DNA of 6,635 nucleotides from Negativicutes bacterium. Lineage in GTDB: Bacteria > Bacillota_C > Negativicutes > Acidaminococcales > Acidaminococcaceae. The stretch spans positions 1 to 6,635 of the forward strand of contig RZYP01000113.1 in NCBI GenBank assembly GCA_009930275.1. Direction: 5' to 3'. The position numbers and the translations under genes are program-made. Below, one piece after another: positions 1 through 6,635 of this stretch. Position 1 is the first letter of the stretch, and each line of letters opens with the position of its first letter. The notes beneath the pieces are model-generated. The model was given only the letters and a program-made list of their open reading frames with translations. It was not told where the DNA came from and made no database searches.

Positions 1-1041
1 ACTTTCCATATTGGAGCAAACGAAGGTCAGAATGTTGTGAGTTCAATCGGCGCTATGGATGCTGAGTCATTGGGCGTAGCTGGGAATAGGATTTCAGCTG
101 GAACCTTTACTGCTGGATCTACTAATATCCAATCAATGTCTAATTTAGGATCTGGTTTAACAGAGCAAACATATAGTGTTACTACAACTGTAAGTGCATC
201 ATCAGCAAGCTCAGCTACTTTAGGCACGAATATGAATGCAAACACAGCTGGTACTTTAGGTGGTGGAGCTGCTTATACTGGTGATGCTTATGCTTTGTTA
301 GAAATTAGAGTTAATACTGACGGAGTAGGAACTTTTAGCTCATTTGACTACCGTATTGGTGGTGGTGGATGGAATACAGGATTGGCTTCGGGTGATGCGT
401 TGGGTACTACAGGTTTAACTTGGACTGCAGGTACTGACTATGATGATGCAGAGACTGATAATGGTAAAATTATTTCATATGATTTAACACCGGCTTCTTA
501 TACTGCTAAACTTGTAAATGAAGCTGGAACCGATGTTGGTTCTGCCGTTACTTTTAGATATTCAGCGACTTCTGTTGTTGTTGGTAATGCAGCTTCTGGT
601 GAAACAATGCAGGCAAATTTTGTAGCAGGTTCAATCGCAGCTAATACTGATACAACTCAAGCTGTAGTTCTAACAGGATCTACTGCGGCTTCAATCGACG
701 CTAATGGAGAAGTAACTTCTAAAGCAACTGTACAAGCGGGTATTAATATTTCCTCTCAATCAGCTGCTGATACAGCAATTACTACTATTAATAGTGCACT
801 TGAGAAGGTATCTTCTGAAAGATCAAAGCTTGGAGCGGCTCAAAATAGATTAGAGCATACGATTAAAAATTTGGATACTTCTTCTGAGAACTTACAAGCT
901 TCTGAATCACGTATCAGAGACGTAGACATGGCGAAAGAAATGATGGAATTCACTAAGAATAACATCTTGCAACAAGCAGCTCAGGCTATGTTGGCTCAAG
1001 CAAATCAGCAACCTCAAGGCGTATTACAGCTTCTGAGATAG
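1..1041 (+). CDS. Flagellin, C-terminal part (N terminus outside window)
   Basis: Structural subunit of the flagellar filament, exported through the flagellar type III apparatus and polymerised outside the cell. The reading frame is open from base 1 and gives 346 residues. It opens with [10 protein letters not shown], the end of the conserved N-terminal flagellin domain, so the D0/D1 N-terminal half is missing upstream. A Gly/Ser/Thr/Ala-rich variable region follows (about residues 25-240). The conserved C-terminal domain runs from about residue 250 to the end, with [20 protein letters not shown], then [13 protein letters not shown] and the tail [14 protein letters not shown]. The stop is TAG at 1039-1041. 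A group I intron and a second copy of the last 14 codons lie just downstream, so this is probably the unspliced form. The spliced form would join bases 1-991 to 1362-1406 and end [14 protein letters not shown]. Flagellin identity is near certain; which form dominates is not visible. Confidence 0.96.
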
Positions 1042-1361
1042 TTGATTAAGGGTCCGTTGGAGAGTAATCTCTAAATGATAATTGGGTGAATTGCTGGAAC
1101 TTCCTGAAGCTCAGCTAACCACAACGCAGCTGGAAACGGCATACGTGACGGTTTGAAAATAGCTGAGATTGGACAATCAGCAGCCAAGCTCCTGTACCGA
1201 AAGGTTGGAGAAGGTTCAACGACTAGGGTGTACTACCTAAGGCAATCCAAAGATTGTACGGTAATGAGATCCATAGGGGCAGAGGTGCCCTCGAAGTGCC
1301 CGACAACCAGAAATGGTTGAAGATATAGTCTGGCCGTTAGTGAAAGCTAATGGATGGTCCG
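992..1361 (+). ncRNA. Group I self-splicing intron (IA-like core) in the flagellin gene
   Basis: The catalytic core can be folded by eye: P2 1059-1063/1068-1072 (GUAA loop), P3 1082-1087/1298-1303, P4 1091-1096/1178-1183, P5 1110-1117/1160-1167 (8 bp, perfect), P6a 1189-1192/1207-1210 with a GAAA-capped P6b, P7 1221-1225/1326-1330 (GACUA/UAGUC, guanosine site), two extra hairpins between P7 and P3 as in IA introns, P8 1304-1309/1314-1319 (6 bp, GAAA loop) and P9 1334-1340/1347-1353. The conserved P, Q, R and S elements are recognisable, for example GUUCAACGACUA and AAGAUAUAGUC. The 3' end is placed at G1361. The 5' end is less certain. A start at 992, after U991, restores the flagellin frame exactly. 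A start at 1047, after the TTGAT at 1042-1046, gives a more compact P1. There is no homing endonuclease, TnpA or TnpB ORF. Group I introns in flagellin genes have been reported in thermophilic bacilli (from memory). Confidence 0.9.
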
Positions 1362-1406
1362 CAAGCAAACCAAGCACCTCAAGGCGTACTTCAGTTATTA
1401 AGATAA
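1362..1406 (+). other. Second flagellin C-terminal exon (14 codons plus stop)
   Basis: This stretch translates as [14 protein letters not shown] followed by TAA, which is the standard flagellin tail, yet it has no start codon and lies after the intron. It matches the tail at 997-1041 and its preceding codons (992-1041 overall), with one amino-acid change (Gln to Ala at the fifth residue) and several synonymous changes, including three reshuffled Leu codons and a different stop. Ligation of U991 to C1362 continues the flagellin frame without adding or losing a residue (MLA then QANQAPQG). This makes it the most probable 3' exon. If the alternative 5' splice site at 1046 is used instead, it would be an untranslated relic. 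Confidence 0.82.
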
Positions 1407-3357: not shown

Positions 3358-3579
3358 ATGGCATTTTCAATAAGGTTAACAGATGAAGAAAAAAAACTAG
3401 CTGATAGTTATGCTAAGCTTCATGCTATTTCTTTAGGTGAAGCATTTAAAAAAGCATTGTTTGAAAAAATTGAAGATGAATATGATATTGCCGTAGCTAA
3501 CGAAGCTTATGATGAGTATGTTAAGAATGGGAAAAAGAGTCGTCCTATTGATGAACTATGGAAAGAACTAGATATATGA
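3358..3579 (+). CDS. RelB-type ribbon-helix-helix antitoxin
   Basis: A 73-residue antitoxin of a type II toxin-antitoxin module. The N terminus (MAFSIRLTDEEKKLADSYAK) is a ribbon-helix-helix DNA-binding domain: strand at residues 2-7, first helix from about 8 to 22, second helix SLGEAFKKALFEKI at about 25-38. The acidic and Lys-rich C-terminal part (DEYVKNGKKSRPIDELWKEL) is the usual toxin-binding segment. The start ATG 3358 follows the AAGGGG-type ribosome binding site at 3345-3350. Its stop overlaps the start of the toxin gene (ATGA), so both are made in a coupled manner. It probably represses its own promoter through the palindrome at 3322-3336. Confidence 0.92.
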   Translation: MAFSIRLTDEEKKLADSYAKLHAISLGEAFKKALFEKIEDEYDIAVANEAYDEYVKNGKKSRPIDELWKELDI

Positions 3580-3842
3580 ATTACAAAATCGAAACGACTG
3601 TTAAATTTGAAAAGGAATTTAGAAAATTAGACAACTATACTCAGCGAATGATTAAAGCTTGGATTGAAAAGAATTTAGTTAATTGTTTGGATCCAAGGCA
3701 GCATGGAAAAGGATTAACTTCTAATAAAAGTGGGCAATGGCGATATAGGATTGGTGATTATAGATTAATCTGTTTGATAGAAGACAACAAACTCATCATA
3801 ACTACTTTAACTATTGGTCATCGTAGAGATATTTACAAGTAA
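3576..3842 (+). CDS. RelE/ParE-superfamily toxin
   Basis: An 88-residue toxin, the usual size for RelE. RelE-type members cleave mRNA in the ribosomal A site, while ParE-type members target gyrase; the sequence alone favours the RelE branch. The motifs are FEKEFRKLD near the N terminus (residues 11-19), GLTSNKSGQWRYRIGDYRLI (46-65) with the basic Arg cluster R56, R58 and R63, and the C-terminal GHRRDIYK (81-88), whose Arg and Tyr are placed like the catalytic residues of RelE. The start ATG 3576 overlaps the antitoxin stop. An in-frame ATG at 3558 would add six residues inside the antitoxin gene and does not fit the family N terminus. The module looks complete and probably active. Confidence 0.92.
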   Translation: MNYKIETTVKFEKEFRKLDNYTQRMIKAWIEKNLVNCLDPRQHGKGLTSNKSGQWRYRIGDYRLICLIEDNKLIITTLTIGHRRDIYK

Positions 3843-3963: not shown

Positions 3964-4242
3964 ATGATATTTGCCGAATTAAGAAAAAAATCTCAGATAA
4001 CAATTCCAAAGGATATTGTAGTAAAGCTTGGGCTAAAAGAAGGAGATCTTTTGGAAATAGAAGAAAGAGATGACCAGATAAATATAATTCCAGTAAAAAT
4101 TTATCCGAAAAAATATATTCAGGAACTAAAAGAAGAAATCAAAGAAATTAAATATAAAATAGAATCAGGAGAACAAGCAGTATTCGAAACTGTAGACGAA
4201 ATGTTCAAGTATTTAGATGACAGTGAGGAACAAAAAGGTTAA
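3964..4242 (+). CDS. AbrB/MazE/SpoVT-family DNA-binding protein, orphan
   Basis: A 92-residue protein. The N-terminal swapped-hairpin domain of the AbrB/MazE type covers about residues 1-48, with ELRKKSQITIPKDIVVKLGLKEGDLLEIEE; SQITIPK at 10-16 is the family hallmark. The C-terminal half is a Lys/Glu coiled segment (KKYIQELKEEIKEIKYKIES) ending in AVFETVDEMFKYLDD, a tail typical of antitoxins that neutralise a RelE- or PIN-type toxin. No toxin follows: the next gene is a cobalamin enzyme 63 bases away. It is therefore an orphan antitoxin or a transition-state-type regulator. The start ATG 3964 has AGGAGG at 3951-3956; in-frame codons further upstream (from 3814) run through the terminator and are rejected. 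Confidence 0.9.
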   Translation: MIFAELRKKSQITIPKDIVVKLGLKEGDLLEIEERDDQINIIPVKIYPKKYIQELKEEIKEIKYKIESGEQAVFETVDEMFKYLDDSEEQKG

Positions 4243-4305: not shown

Positions 4306-5022
4306 ATGCTTGGAAAATTATATGGAATTGGAGTAGGTCCTGGGGATCCAGATCTTCTTACAATCAAAGCGGTAAAAATTCTTGAAAAAACTGAATACCT
4401 TTGCTTCCCTGTTGCAAAAGCAGATGGTGACAGCGTTGCACATGAAATTGTATCTAAGGCAATGAATAAAGATTGGAACTTGGTTAAGCTGCATATGCCA
4501 ATGAGTTTGGATTATGACTTACTTGAGCCAAAGTGGCAAAGTGCTGCCGAAGAAATTGCAGAGATTTTAAAAACTGGAAAAGACGCAGCCTTCATTACTC
4601 TTGGCGACACAGCTTTTTTCAGTACATTTATTTACTTGGTAAGAAAAATAAAAAATATACTTCCTGAACTGGAAATTGAAATGGTTCCCGGGATAACAGC
4701 ACCAAGTGCAATCGCAGCAGAGGCAGTACTTCCTCTTGTAATAAGAGACGAAAAATTGTTAATTGTTCCAGCAATCAGAGATATGGAAGACGTAAAAGAG
4801 GCGATTACTGAAAGTGAAAACGTTGTTTTATTTAAAATAGGAAGCATCTTTAAAGAGCTTTACGCTTTCCTTAAGGAAAACGGCCTGGAGAAAAATGCAG
4901 TAGTAGCCAGCCGCTTGGGCTTTGAAGACGGTTTTATTACAAAAGATTTGGAAAGTCTTTTAGACAGAGAAAGATTAGACTATCTTACAACTATGATTAT
5001 TAAGAAAAACGGATTGGAGTAG
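4306..5022 (+). CDS. cbiL: Precorrin-2 / cobalt-factor II C20-methyltransferase
   Basis: An S-adenosylmethionine-dependent methyltransferase that adds the C20 methyl group to precorrin-2 (CobI) or cobalt-factor II (CbiL), an early step of corrin-ring synthesis for vitamin B12 in the cytoplasm. The product has 238 residues, the normal family length. It shows the tetrapyrrole methylase motifs: GVGPGDPDLLTIKAVKIL at the N terminus (9-26), LGDTAFFST (99-107, in the place of the usual GDP-type loop) and VPGITAPSAIAA (127-138). The C20 assignment rests on the DPDLLTIKA and PVAKA pattern and on the adjacent C17-methyltransferase. The start ATG 4306 follows CGGAGGG at 4292-4298. It lies six bases before the next gene, with which it forms an operon. 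CbiL rather than CobI is inferred from an anaerobic, clostridial setting. Confidence 0.93.
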   Translation: MLGKLYGIGVGPGDPDLLTIKAVKILEKTEYLCFPVAKADGDSVAHEIVSKAMNKDWNLVKLHMPMSLDYDLLEPKWQSAAEEIAEILKTGKDAAFITLGDTAFFSTFIYLVRKIKNILPELEIEMVPGITAPSAIAAEAVLPLVIRDEKLLIVPAIRDMEDVKEAITESENVVLFKIGSIFKELYAFLKENGLEKNAVVASRLGFEDGFITKDLESLLDRERLDYLTTMIIKKNGLE

Positions 5023-5028
5023 GAAAAT

Positions 5029-5781
5029 ATGGAAAACAAATTAGGTAAAATATATATAGTAGGTCTTGGACCTGGAGACAGAGACCACTTTTCCTACAGA
5101 GCAGTTCAAGCGATAGAAGAGTCAGATGTAATTGCTGGATATGGCATGTACGTTGACCTGGTAAAAGATTTATTAGAAGGCAAAGAAGTTATCAGCAAGG
5201 GCATGAAAAGGGAAATTGAAAGAGCTAATCTTGCAATAGAGGAAGCTAAAAAGGGCAAAAATGTGGCCGTAATTTCCGGGGGAGATCCTGGGGTATATGG
5301 TATGGCAGGAATCGTTCTTGAGCTGGCTGATCCTGAAATTGAAATCGAAGTTGTCCCTGGAATAACAGCGGCAACAGCAGCGGCAGCAAGCCTTGGAGCT
5401 CCATTAATGCACGACTTCGCTTTAATCAGCTTGAGTGATCTTCTTACCCCTTATGACAAAATTATGGACAGAATTAAACACTGCTCAATGGCAGATATGG
5501 CAATTGTTATCTACAACCCAAGAAGTCACGGGCGTCAGAAGCATTTGGACGAAGCAAGGGAAATTATGCTTCAGTATAAATCTCCAGAAACACCAGTAGG
5601 TCTTGTTAGGAACGCAAAAAGAGGAGAAGAAGAAGTTGTAATTACAACTTTAGGGAATCTTCCAAATGAAGAAGTTGACATGCTGACCGTGGTTCTTGTA
5701 GGAAACTCAGAAACCAGGGTGCAAAACGGCAAAATGATTACACCAAGGGGATATCATAAAAAAGAAGAATATCACGCTTAA
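5029..5781 (+). CDS. cbiH: Precorrin-3B / cobalt-factor III C17-methyltransferase
   Basis: A SAM-dependent methyltransferase that methylates C17 and drives ring contraction in corrin synthesis (CobJ in the aerobic, CbiH in the anaerobic route). The 250-residue length fits CbiH without extra domains. The motifs are GLGPGDRDHFSYRA (12-25), the family-specific GYGMYVDLV (37-45), SGGDPGVYGMAG (83-94), VPGITAATAAAASLGAPLMHDF-type substrate loop (109-130) with SLSDLLTPY (134-142), and YNPRSHGR (162-169). The start ATG 5029 lies six bases after the cbiL stop, and its ribosome binding site GGAGTAGG (5016-5023) overlaps that stop. The other genes of the pathway are not in view, so this is a detached pair. 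Confidence 0.95.
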   Translation: MENKLGKIYIVGLGPGDRDHFSYRAVQAIEESDVIAGYGMYVDLVKDLLEGKEVISKGMKREIERANLAIEEAKKGKNVAVISGGDPGVYGMAGIVLELADPEIEIEVVPGITAATAAAASLGAPLMHDFALISLSDLLTPYDKIMDRIKHCSMADMAIVIYNPRSHGRQKHLDEAREIMLQYKSPETPVGLVRNAKRGEEEVVITTLGNLPNEEVDMLTVVLVGNSETRVQNGKMITPRGYHKKEEYHA

Positions 5782-5876: not shown

Positions 5877-6278
5877 ATGAGTACAAAAAACAGAGAGTTT
5901 AAACTGAATAATATTAAAGAGCAGCAGGACGTAGTTGCCACATTGCTGGAGGATCTTGCCGGGGCGGAAGTTCCCAGAGAGACAGTGAATGACATACGTC
6001 TTGCTTTAGTTGAAGGTATAAATAATGCCTTTATTCACGGCGCCAGAAGCATTGAGGGTGAAGTTTCCGTATCCTGGCATCTGAATAATCGTTCAATCCG
6101 CATTGAAATTGCCGACAAAGGAACAGGCTTTGAATACTCTCAGGAAAAGTTTTCCCAACGTAAGGAAGACTCTTTATTGTGCGAGGGTGGCATGGGTGTA
6201 TTTTTGATTCAGCAGGTTATGGATGAAATTTTTTATAACGAAAAAGGGAATGTCCTCTGTGGACTTAAGACGTGGTAA
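5877..6278 (+). CDS. Anti-sigma factor, RsbW/SpoIIAB-like serine kinase
   Basis: A 133-residue GHKL-type ATPase of the RsbW/SpoIIAB family. Such proteins bind and silence a SigB/SigF-type sigma factor and phosphorylate an anti-anti-sigma factor. The ATP-binding boxes are clear: N box LALVEGINNAFIHG with E46 and N50, G1 box DKGTGFE (80-86) and G2 box GGMGVFLIQQVMDE (104-117). The length matches SpoIIAB/RsbW. The start ATG 5877 has AGGAG at 5865-5869. It precedes a SigB/SigF-type sigma gene by 52 bases, which supports the partner assignment. In the classical arrangement an RsbV/SpoIIAA gene sits immediately upstream; here that place is taken by cbiH and an inverted repeat. A closely related alternative is a family member acting as a kinase in another partner-switching circuit. 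Confidence 0.9.
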   Translation: MSTKNREFKLNNIKEQQDVVATLLEDLAGAEVPRETVNDIRLALVEGINNAFIHGARSIEGEVSVSWHLNNRSIRIEIADKGTGFEYSQEKFSQRKEDSLLCEGGMGVFLIQQVMDEIFYNEKGNVLCGLKTW

Positions 6279-6330
6279 GATATACAATAGTAGATAGCAG
6301 AAACAGACTTTAAAGTGTAGAGGTACAAAT

Positions 6331-6635
6331 ATGGCAAAAAGAGATTTAGATGAATTAGTCGCTGAGTATAAGCAGGAACCCTGTGAGAAAACCATAAACG
6401 AAATTTTCTCAGTAATGGAACCATATATTCAGTATTGGTGCCAGACTCAATGTTATCTTCCCTGGGAAAAGGAAGATATACTTCAGGTTGCCCGAATTGC
6501 CGTACTTGGTGCTATCGACCGTTTTGATACAGAAAAAGGCATTCGTTTTAAAACCTTTGCCTATAAAACCATTTCCGGAAAAATTTTGAACTATTATCGG
6601 GACAGTACTTGGAGAGTTGGAATTCCCAGAAAGTA
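6331..6635 (+). CDS. SigB/SigF-family RNA polymerase sigma factor, N-terminal part
   Basis: The frame is open from ATG 6331 to the window edge (101 residues), with AGAGG at 6319-6323 as ribosome binding site. The segment EDILQVARIAVLGAIDRFD (48-66) is sigma-70 region 2.1-2.2. EKGIRFKTFAYKTISGKILNYYRDSTWRVGIPRK (68-101) is region 2.3-2.4 and the start of region 3, with the -10-recognition helix. The TFAYKTISGKI and RDSTWRV.IPR pattern is that of SigB/SigF/SigG sigma factors rather than the housekeeping or ECF type. Regions 3 and 4 lie beyond the window. It is the probable client of the anti-sigma factor encoded just upstream. Whether it governs stress response, sporulation or another programme cannot be told from this part. 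Confidence 0.92.
   Translation, partial: MAKRDLDELVAEYKQEPCEKTINEIFSVMEPYIQYWCQTQCYLPWEKEDILQVARIAVLGAIDRFDTEKGIRFKTFAYKTISGKILNYYRDSTWRVGIPRK

Follow-up and report, generated by a model that had tools for sequence, protein, structure and literature searches.

Group I introns in flagellin genes are known from thermophilic Bacillus and Geobacillus, where they are reported to be self-splicing (Hayakawa and Ishizuka 2009, 2012, via PMC3984707, PMC4853749), and the later of these studies is reported in PMC4853749 to have found temperature-dependent splicing that promotes motility. Another ribozyme is C.te.I1, a group II intron in an S-layer gene of Clostridium tetani (McNeil et al., PMC3919590). 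Gene ends supplied by mobile elements have been described in fungal mitochondria, in which endonuclease ORFs brought C-terminal duplications to atp6, atp9, cox2 and nad3 (PMC3630166), and an early in-frame stop in group I introns is discussed in a review as an aid to intron folding (PMC3984707). No description of a duplicated flagellin tail was found in the literature searched, a limited collection lying outside the primary flagellin-intron papers, and passages of PMC5109656 and PMC8987985 contain nothing on the intron described here. The remark in the first-pass annotation that no described case was known is borne out within that scope.

The stretch of DNA analysed here (the window; 6,635 nt) opens inside a flagellin gene whose end is interrupted by an intron. 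Between its 5' splice site and its internal guide, this intron repeats in frame the last 14 codons and the stop of the gene. The features on which the argument depends are as follows.

1-1041, + strand: flagellin gene, 5'-truncated by the window start (Flagellin_C, PF00700, E 2.1e-31; ORF)
988-996, + strand: end of the 5' exon, ATG TTG GCT (MLA), with the Ala codon GCT in 90/90 intron genes
993-1054, + strand: P1, 993-997 with 1050-1054 (internal guide GGGUC), with U996.G1051 at the splice site (minimum-energy fold)
996-997, + strand: predicted 5' splice site U996/C997 (in-frame junction; U996.G1051 pair of P1)
997-1361, + strand: group I intron, 365 nt (RF00028, E 8.1e-25; boundaries from 91 homologous loci)
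997-1041, + strand: intron-borne (first, spare) tail copy, 14 codons and TAG (ORF; intact in 90/91 introns at the site, window included)
1003-1047, + strand: P1 extension, 1003-1009 (tail codons 3-5) with 1041-1047 (the last base of the stop and what follows) (fold; covariation)
1057-1074, + strand: P2 hairpin, 1057-1063/1068-1074 (minimum-energy fold; Rfam alignment)
1321-1330, + strand: AGATATAGTC, which contains the 3' strand of P7, 31 nt upstream of the 3' splice site (Rfam alignment)
1361-1362, + strand: predicted 3' splice site G1361/C1362 (comparison of homologous loci)
1362-1406, + strand: 3' exon, with the second tail at 1362-1403 (14 codons) and TAA at 1404-1406, predicted to be used after splicing (intact in 91/91)
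1436-1467, + strand: terminator-like hairpin 3' of the second tail (terminator scan; inverted repeat)

The match to RF00028 runs from 1022 to 1352 on the + strand over the full model length, with 97.1 bits against a cut-off of 50, and includes the conserved core P3-P8 with the guanosine-binding strands of P7; the group I intron proposed in the first-pass annotation is thereby confirmed. Read mechanically, the flagellin ORF ends in the intron-borne tail with its stop at 1039-1041, in agreement with the first flagellin end proposed earlier. Translation of both tails likewise verified the second tail and stop, the sole difference between the peptides being a change from Gln to Ala at tail residue 5. 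The tails form the longest direct repeat found in 900-1500 (997-1045 and 1362-1410, 49 nt, 78% identical). The spacing between the P7 motif and the 3' splice site is 31 nt in most homologues and 29 or 33 in others. The hairpin at 1436-1467 is the sole terminator-like one in 950-1550, although one found against a shuffle mean of 0.7 is weak alone. Neither a homing endonuclease nor alternative splicing of the C.te.I1 type was found in the window, as the only + strand ORF of at least 50 aa inside the 365-nt intron has 55 aa and this group I intron shows one 3' exon.

The remainder of the window holds a YjfB-type putative motility protein downstream of the flagellin (1920-2117), a Phd/YefM-like protein below the Pfam cut-off (2423-2710), and a two-gene pair encoding a DUF6290 protein and a ParE-like toxin (3358-3842; E 3e-16) that is likely a toxin-antitoxin module. 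A MazE-like protein (3964-4242) is followed by two tetrapyrrole methylases in tandem (4306-5781), which probably serve cobalamin synthesis. A histidine-kinase-like ATPase protein and then the start of a sigma-70 family protein occupy 5877-6633, and we take the former, by its place, to be RsbW-like.

The window is compatible with a single pairing scheme and a single reading frame, namely U996/C997 with G1361/C1362, which would give the exon junction GCT/CAA in phase 0 and in frame. The junction proposed in the first-pass annotation, U991 to C1362, falls out of frame, since a TTG codon occupies 991-993, and the 5' splice site lies 5 nt farther downstream, at U996. In 90/90 homologues the base immediately 5' of the predicted cut is U, within the codon GCT, the third base of this Ala codon having been left free in the homologue search; L252, excluded from that count, also has GCT. 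Among flagellins without an intron signal GCT is used in 58/100, and one of the 70 with an intron signal in the same survey had GCA. The intron ends in G1361 in the window; in the homologues the terminal G was part of the search pattern, and their counts are no test of it. The Rfam alignment of P1 would put the 5' splice site where the first tail ends; this position was rejected because the U.G-paired P1 and its covarying extension fit U996. No conserved P10 pairing with the 3' exon was seen by eye in the loci compared. From the ribozyme and from the selection on the 3' tail described below, we infer that the intron splices at the predicted 996/1362 junction.

An intron at the identical codon boundary of flagellin, MLA/QAN (hereafter site B, with type B introns), was found in 90 further loci from Bacilli and Clostridia, 89 of them with the spare tail, so that with the window the intron-borne tail is intact in 90/91 loci and the 3' tail in 91/91. 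The arrangement in the window is therefore no accident. These loci are related and do not amount to 91 independent events, and the permutations reported below leave that relatedness in place. In the first set, 184 distinct P7 motifs were examined and 70 had both an upstream flagellin MLA/Q site and a flagellin-like 3' exon start; two more (L143, L195) had the exon start alone. One of the 70, L105, was removed because its own flagellin tail is uninterrupted and a separate gene precedes the orphan intron. The first tail is intact at 14 codons in 68 of the remaining 69 (window included) and the second in all 69. A later search with identical criteria added a second set of 22 loci, in which both tails are intact throughout (one first tail having 15 codons); the longest of these introns, that of L291 at 604 nt, proved to be uninterrupted. 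The bases adjoining the splice sites were fixed by the criteria, stops and lengths being left free, and introns without a P7 motif lie outside the counts. Intron pieces with a second flagellin tail and no flagellin directly upstream, some of them decayed, were also observed as orphaned or broken copies (L105, L010, L028, L195).

The same build was present in 14 of the best 80 of 511 confirmed flagellin relatives in a genome scan (L001, L002, L011, L012, L017, L024, L039, L049, L054, L062, L067, L068, L071, L076), under the record names Syntrophomonas, Sporosarcina, Pseudalkalibacillus, Clostridium, Bacillus, Oceanobacillus, Neobacillus, Anoxybacillus, Peribacillus, Lentibacillus, Geobacillus and unclassified Firmicutes bacterium. 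Whole-genome Rfam searches gave group I matches in 139/299 genomes of the order of G005, 6/63 of the class of G001 and 31/249 of the order of G002. Of these matches, those reported as individual loci and a further 94 stretches from the listings were read for the first set, the listing for the order of G005 stopping short of its weakest matches. The draws for the second set had a group I match in 21/371 and 92/378 genomes, of which the best loci were read.

These observations suggest how an intron could be tolerated at the end of a flagellin gene. The group I ribozyme occupies the MLA/QAN boundary, and splicing would join the gene to its original last 14 codons 3' of the intron. RNA translated before or without splicing would, as follows from the frame, end on the intron's own copy of the tail, and both products would be complete flagellins. 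When the gene is strongly expressed, the leading ribosomes may arrive at the 5' splice site while the 365-nt ribozyme is still being transcribed, and so without a spare tail the earliest products might be defective. Since the stop lies 6-18 nt 5' of the guide in nearly all loci, a terminating ribosome would cover P1 and spare the catalytic core, and P1 could re-form after the ribosome leaves. The intron would thereby be nearly cost-free to its host, and we consider it likely that the spare tail is a fail-safe for ribosomes that arrive before the intron can splice. The proposal in the first-pass annotation that the intron carries a replacement of the exon it displaces, with spliced and unspliced RNA both encoding complete flagellin, is strongly supported by the comparison of loci, except that it set the splice site 5 nt too far upstream. 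It is an open problem how bacterial protein genes come to retain introns, with the ribosome close behind the polymerase, and here a widespread natural solution would be readable in sequence: the 5' end of the intron supplies both a strand of the guide helix and a substitute exon, so that an RNA translated ahead of splicing would cost nothing. It also follows that a mechanically read flagellin end in such genomes is the intron's copy, and that the tail expected after splicing is overlooked.

The first tail also appears to have a role as RNA. In the fold of 990-1075 the P1 extension encloses most of the first tail, with a weaker inner hairpin formed by later tail codons, and the energy z-score is -2.6 (3/200 shuffles equally good); the shorter stretch 985-1061 folded alone is unexceptional (z -0.7, 44/200 shuffles). 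The internal guide is GGGUCC in 14/68 introns and GGGCGUC in 54/68. Covariation of the P1 extension was assessed by pairing the tail-codon strand with the post-stop strands of other loci, a permutation in which kinship between loci remains: in the first set (58 distinct pairs) the summed duplex energy of the own pairing was -364 kcal/mol, where permuted partners averaged -243 (sd 12.8), and in the second set (20 new pairs) -138 against -69, with 0/20000 partner permutations as good as the own pairing in either set. This pairing accounts for most of the differences between first and second tails.

The differences themselves might be read in another way, with splicing modulated, for example by temperature, and the properties of the filament depending on which tail it carries. 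Tail residue 2 is Ser in 42/68 first tails and in only 2/100 flagellins without an intron signal, and it is Ala in 66/68 second tails. Temperature-dependent splicing reported for a flagellin group I intron (PMC4853749) would also suit such regulation, and splicing that promotes motility is not to be expected if the unspliced RNA gave good flagellin. The tails nevertheless differ mainly at codons 2-5, that is, in the P1 extension that covaries with its other strand, and two residues farther along mostly follow each other between the tails: residue 8 agrees in 80/89 genes (permutation maximum 61) and the last residue, 14, in 86/89 (permutation maximum 75), only 15 of these 86 sharing the codon as well, although the permutations do not remove relatedness among the 89 genes. 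We therefore regard regulated isoforms as unlikely, if the most serious of the alternatives. The first-pass annotation had left open whether failed splicing is harmless or two isoforms are made; the sequence favours harmless failure as the more probable of the two, because the tails differ mainly at the P1 helix and mostly agree elsewhere.

With part of the spare tail in a helix, its conservation might serve the RNA sequence of P1 and owe nothing to translation, as the pairing of codons 3-5 and the weaker inner hairpin from later codons would allow. Codons 6-14, however, lie outside the covarying helix and over 89 genes show a pS of 0.73 and a pN of 0.12 in the first tail, against 0.61 and 0.12 in the second. 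One relative, L252, keeps the intron and the second tail with 23 unrelated residues in place of the first tail, the guide-side helix still being possible by inspection. Conservation for RNA alone is thus improbable; the same locus, with no usable spare tail, indicates that the spare tail is not indispensable. Comparison of the loci indicates that selection maintains two complete in-frame 3' ends, and both tails look selected as protein, which suggests that spliced and unspliced RNAs are both probably translated. The second tail lacks its own start codon, and that it is kept implies that the intron splices in vivo; the first can be translated solely from unspliced RNA, and its upkeep implies a useful protein from that RNA.

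Loss of splicing, which would confine use to the first tail and make the remainder a structured 3' untranslated region, is a shade less probable again. The first ORF is complete, and such a state can exist, as shown by L036, in which the intron has decayed, no 3' tail was seen and the spare tail is intact, as if the spare tail suffices. Against it, all 91 loci preserve the 3' tail as protein at high synonymous divergence, the ribozyme core is kept, and L252 would be without a proper tail unless spliced. A recent tandem duplication beside an intron insertion, with tails intact merely because they are young, would fit the 78% identity in the window and is refuted for the family as a whole, and very improbable overall, by the occurrence of the layout in Bacilli and Clostridia and by a within-gene pS between tails of 0.72, close to the 0.75 between genes (68 genes), which also indicates that conversion is not what keeps the tails alike. 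In P0001, which at 75% identity is the nearest protein relative of the window's flagellin among the matches listed, the stop of the first tail is read through into 30 residues of intron sequence, through mutation or sequencing error.

A sister intron adds a second case. The same kind of ribozyme occurs between RDVD and MAKEM (site A, with type A introns), 69 nt upstream of site B; it is absent from the window. The first set holds 52 distinct type A flagellin introns (88 rows, the other 36 genes being uninterrupted at site A), and reading through from the exon ends after five or six codons, as YALAA in 30/52 and as YTEAA, YAFAA, YDLIAA or YALVA in others. Of the 52, 47 have AA as their final two residues, four have VA and one has AV; in the second set 11/11 end in AA, so that 63/63 end in AA, VA or AV (loci include L081, L112-L132, L279, L306 and L310). 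L131 carries three flagellin gene ends spaced at about 1.3 kb, each with a type A intron ending YDLIAA.

The type A endings, YAEAA being among the forms, resemble the SsrA (tmRNA) tags of the genomes that hold them. SsrA tags ending in LAA send proteins to ClpXP. Predicted tmRNA tags in four type A genomes end in FALAA, LAVAA, LAFAA and LALAA (eight loci searched, four without tmRNA). The last two type A codons show a pS of 0.52 and a pN of 0.05 over 49 introns. By inspection they lie in a hairpin in most copies, and this pairing may explain part of their conservation; in the six-codon variants L131, L310 and L324 the extra codon apparently falls within the loop, and the ending remains Ala-Ala. 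Among non-flagellin introns in the same loci, also by inspection, the read-through of L129, L134 and L160 is not tag-like and that of L194 ends in LAV, so the contrast between flagellin and non-flagellin introns is not clean.

Introns A and B occur together in 28 genes (20 in the first set and eight in the second, where L298 and L279 are one place and counted once), and the distance from the P7 motif of A to the B splice site is always 99 nt. In these genes A must splice before a whole flagellin can be made, and the spare tail alone thus cannot make them indifferent to splicing. Unspliced RNA gives a truncated protein at site A and a whole protein at site B. It is quite possible, and we propose it tentatively, that flagellin group I introns evolve the coding stretch between splice site and guide so that it determines what becomes of protein made ahead of splicing, B saving it with a spare tail and A destroying it with an SsrA-like ending. 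If the type A endings are degrons, one gene would hold two opposite answers, the product saved or destroyed.

In a tree of intron cores (129 taken and 123 used, six being skipped for lack of the motif, three of them type B and three other), most type B introns group together, and L062, L076 and L261, also type B, fall among type A cores with node support of 0.7-0.9. These placements put a single origin of the spare tail in doubt; repeated origin of the tail or exchange of cores is possible.

Among the described systems, C.te.I1 and the fungal mitochondrial duplications are the nearest in principle. The introns of Hayakawa and Ishizuka are likewise group I introns in flagellin genes, there of bacilli, and the record of Geobacillus icigianus (L076) has the window's build; the difference is that splicing there promotes motility, as PMC4853749 reports it, whereas a usable unspliced message is proposed here. 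The introns with an early stop, as reviewed in PMC3984707, share the halting of the ribosome inside the intron ahead of the core, but in the window the segment before the stop completes the protein. As in the fungal mitochondrial genes, a mobile element supplies a replacement 3' end for the gene it interrupts; in that account the element is an endonuclease ORF and the native tails of atp6 and cox2 are not expressed in mRNA (PMC3630166), while the window's intron has no ORF longer than 55 aa and both tails are kept. C.te.I1 resembles it as a ribozyme intron at a surface-protein gene whose spliced and unspliced RNAs each encode protein, but is a group II intron with several downstream exons that give distinct isoforms, and it is described as absent from other sequenced Clostridium genomes (PMC3919590). 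The system in the window, by comparison, is a group I intron with two near-identical tails, present in many species.
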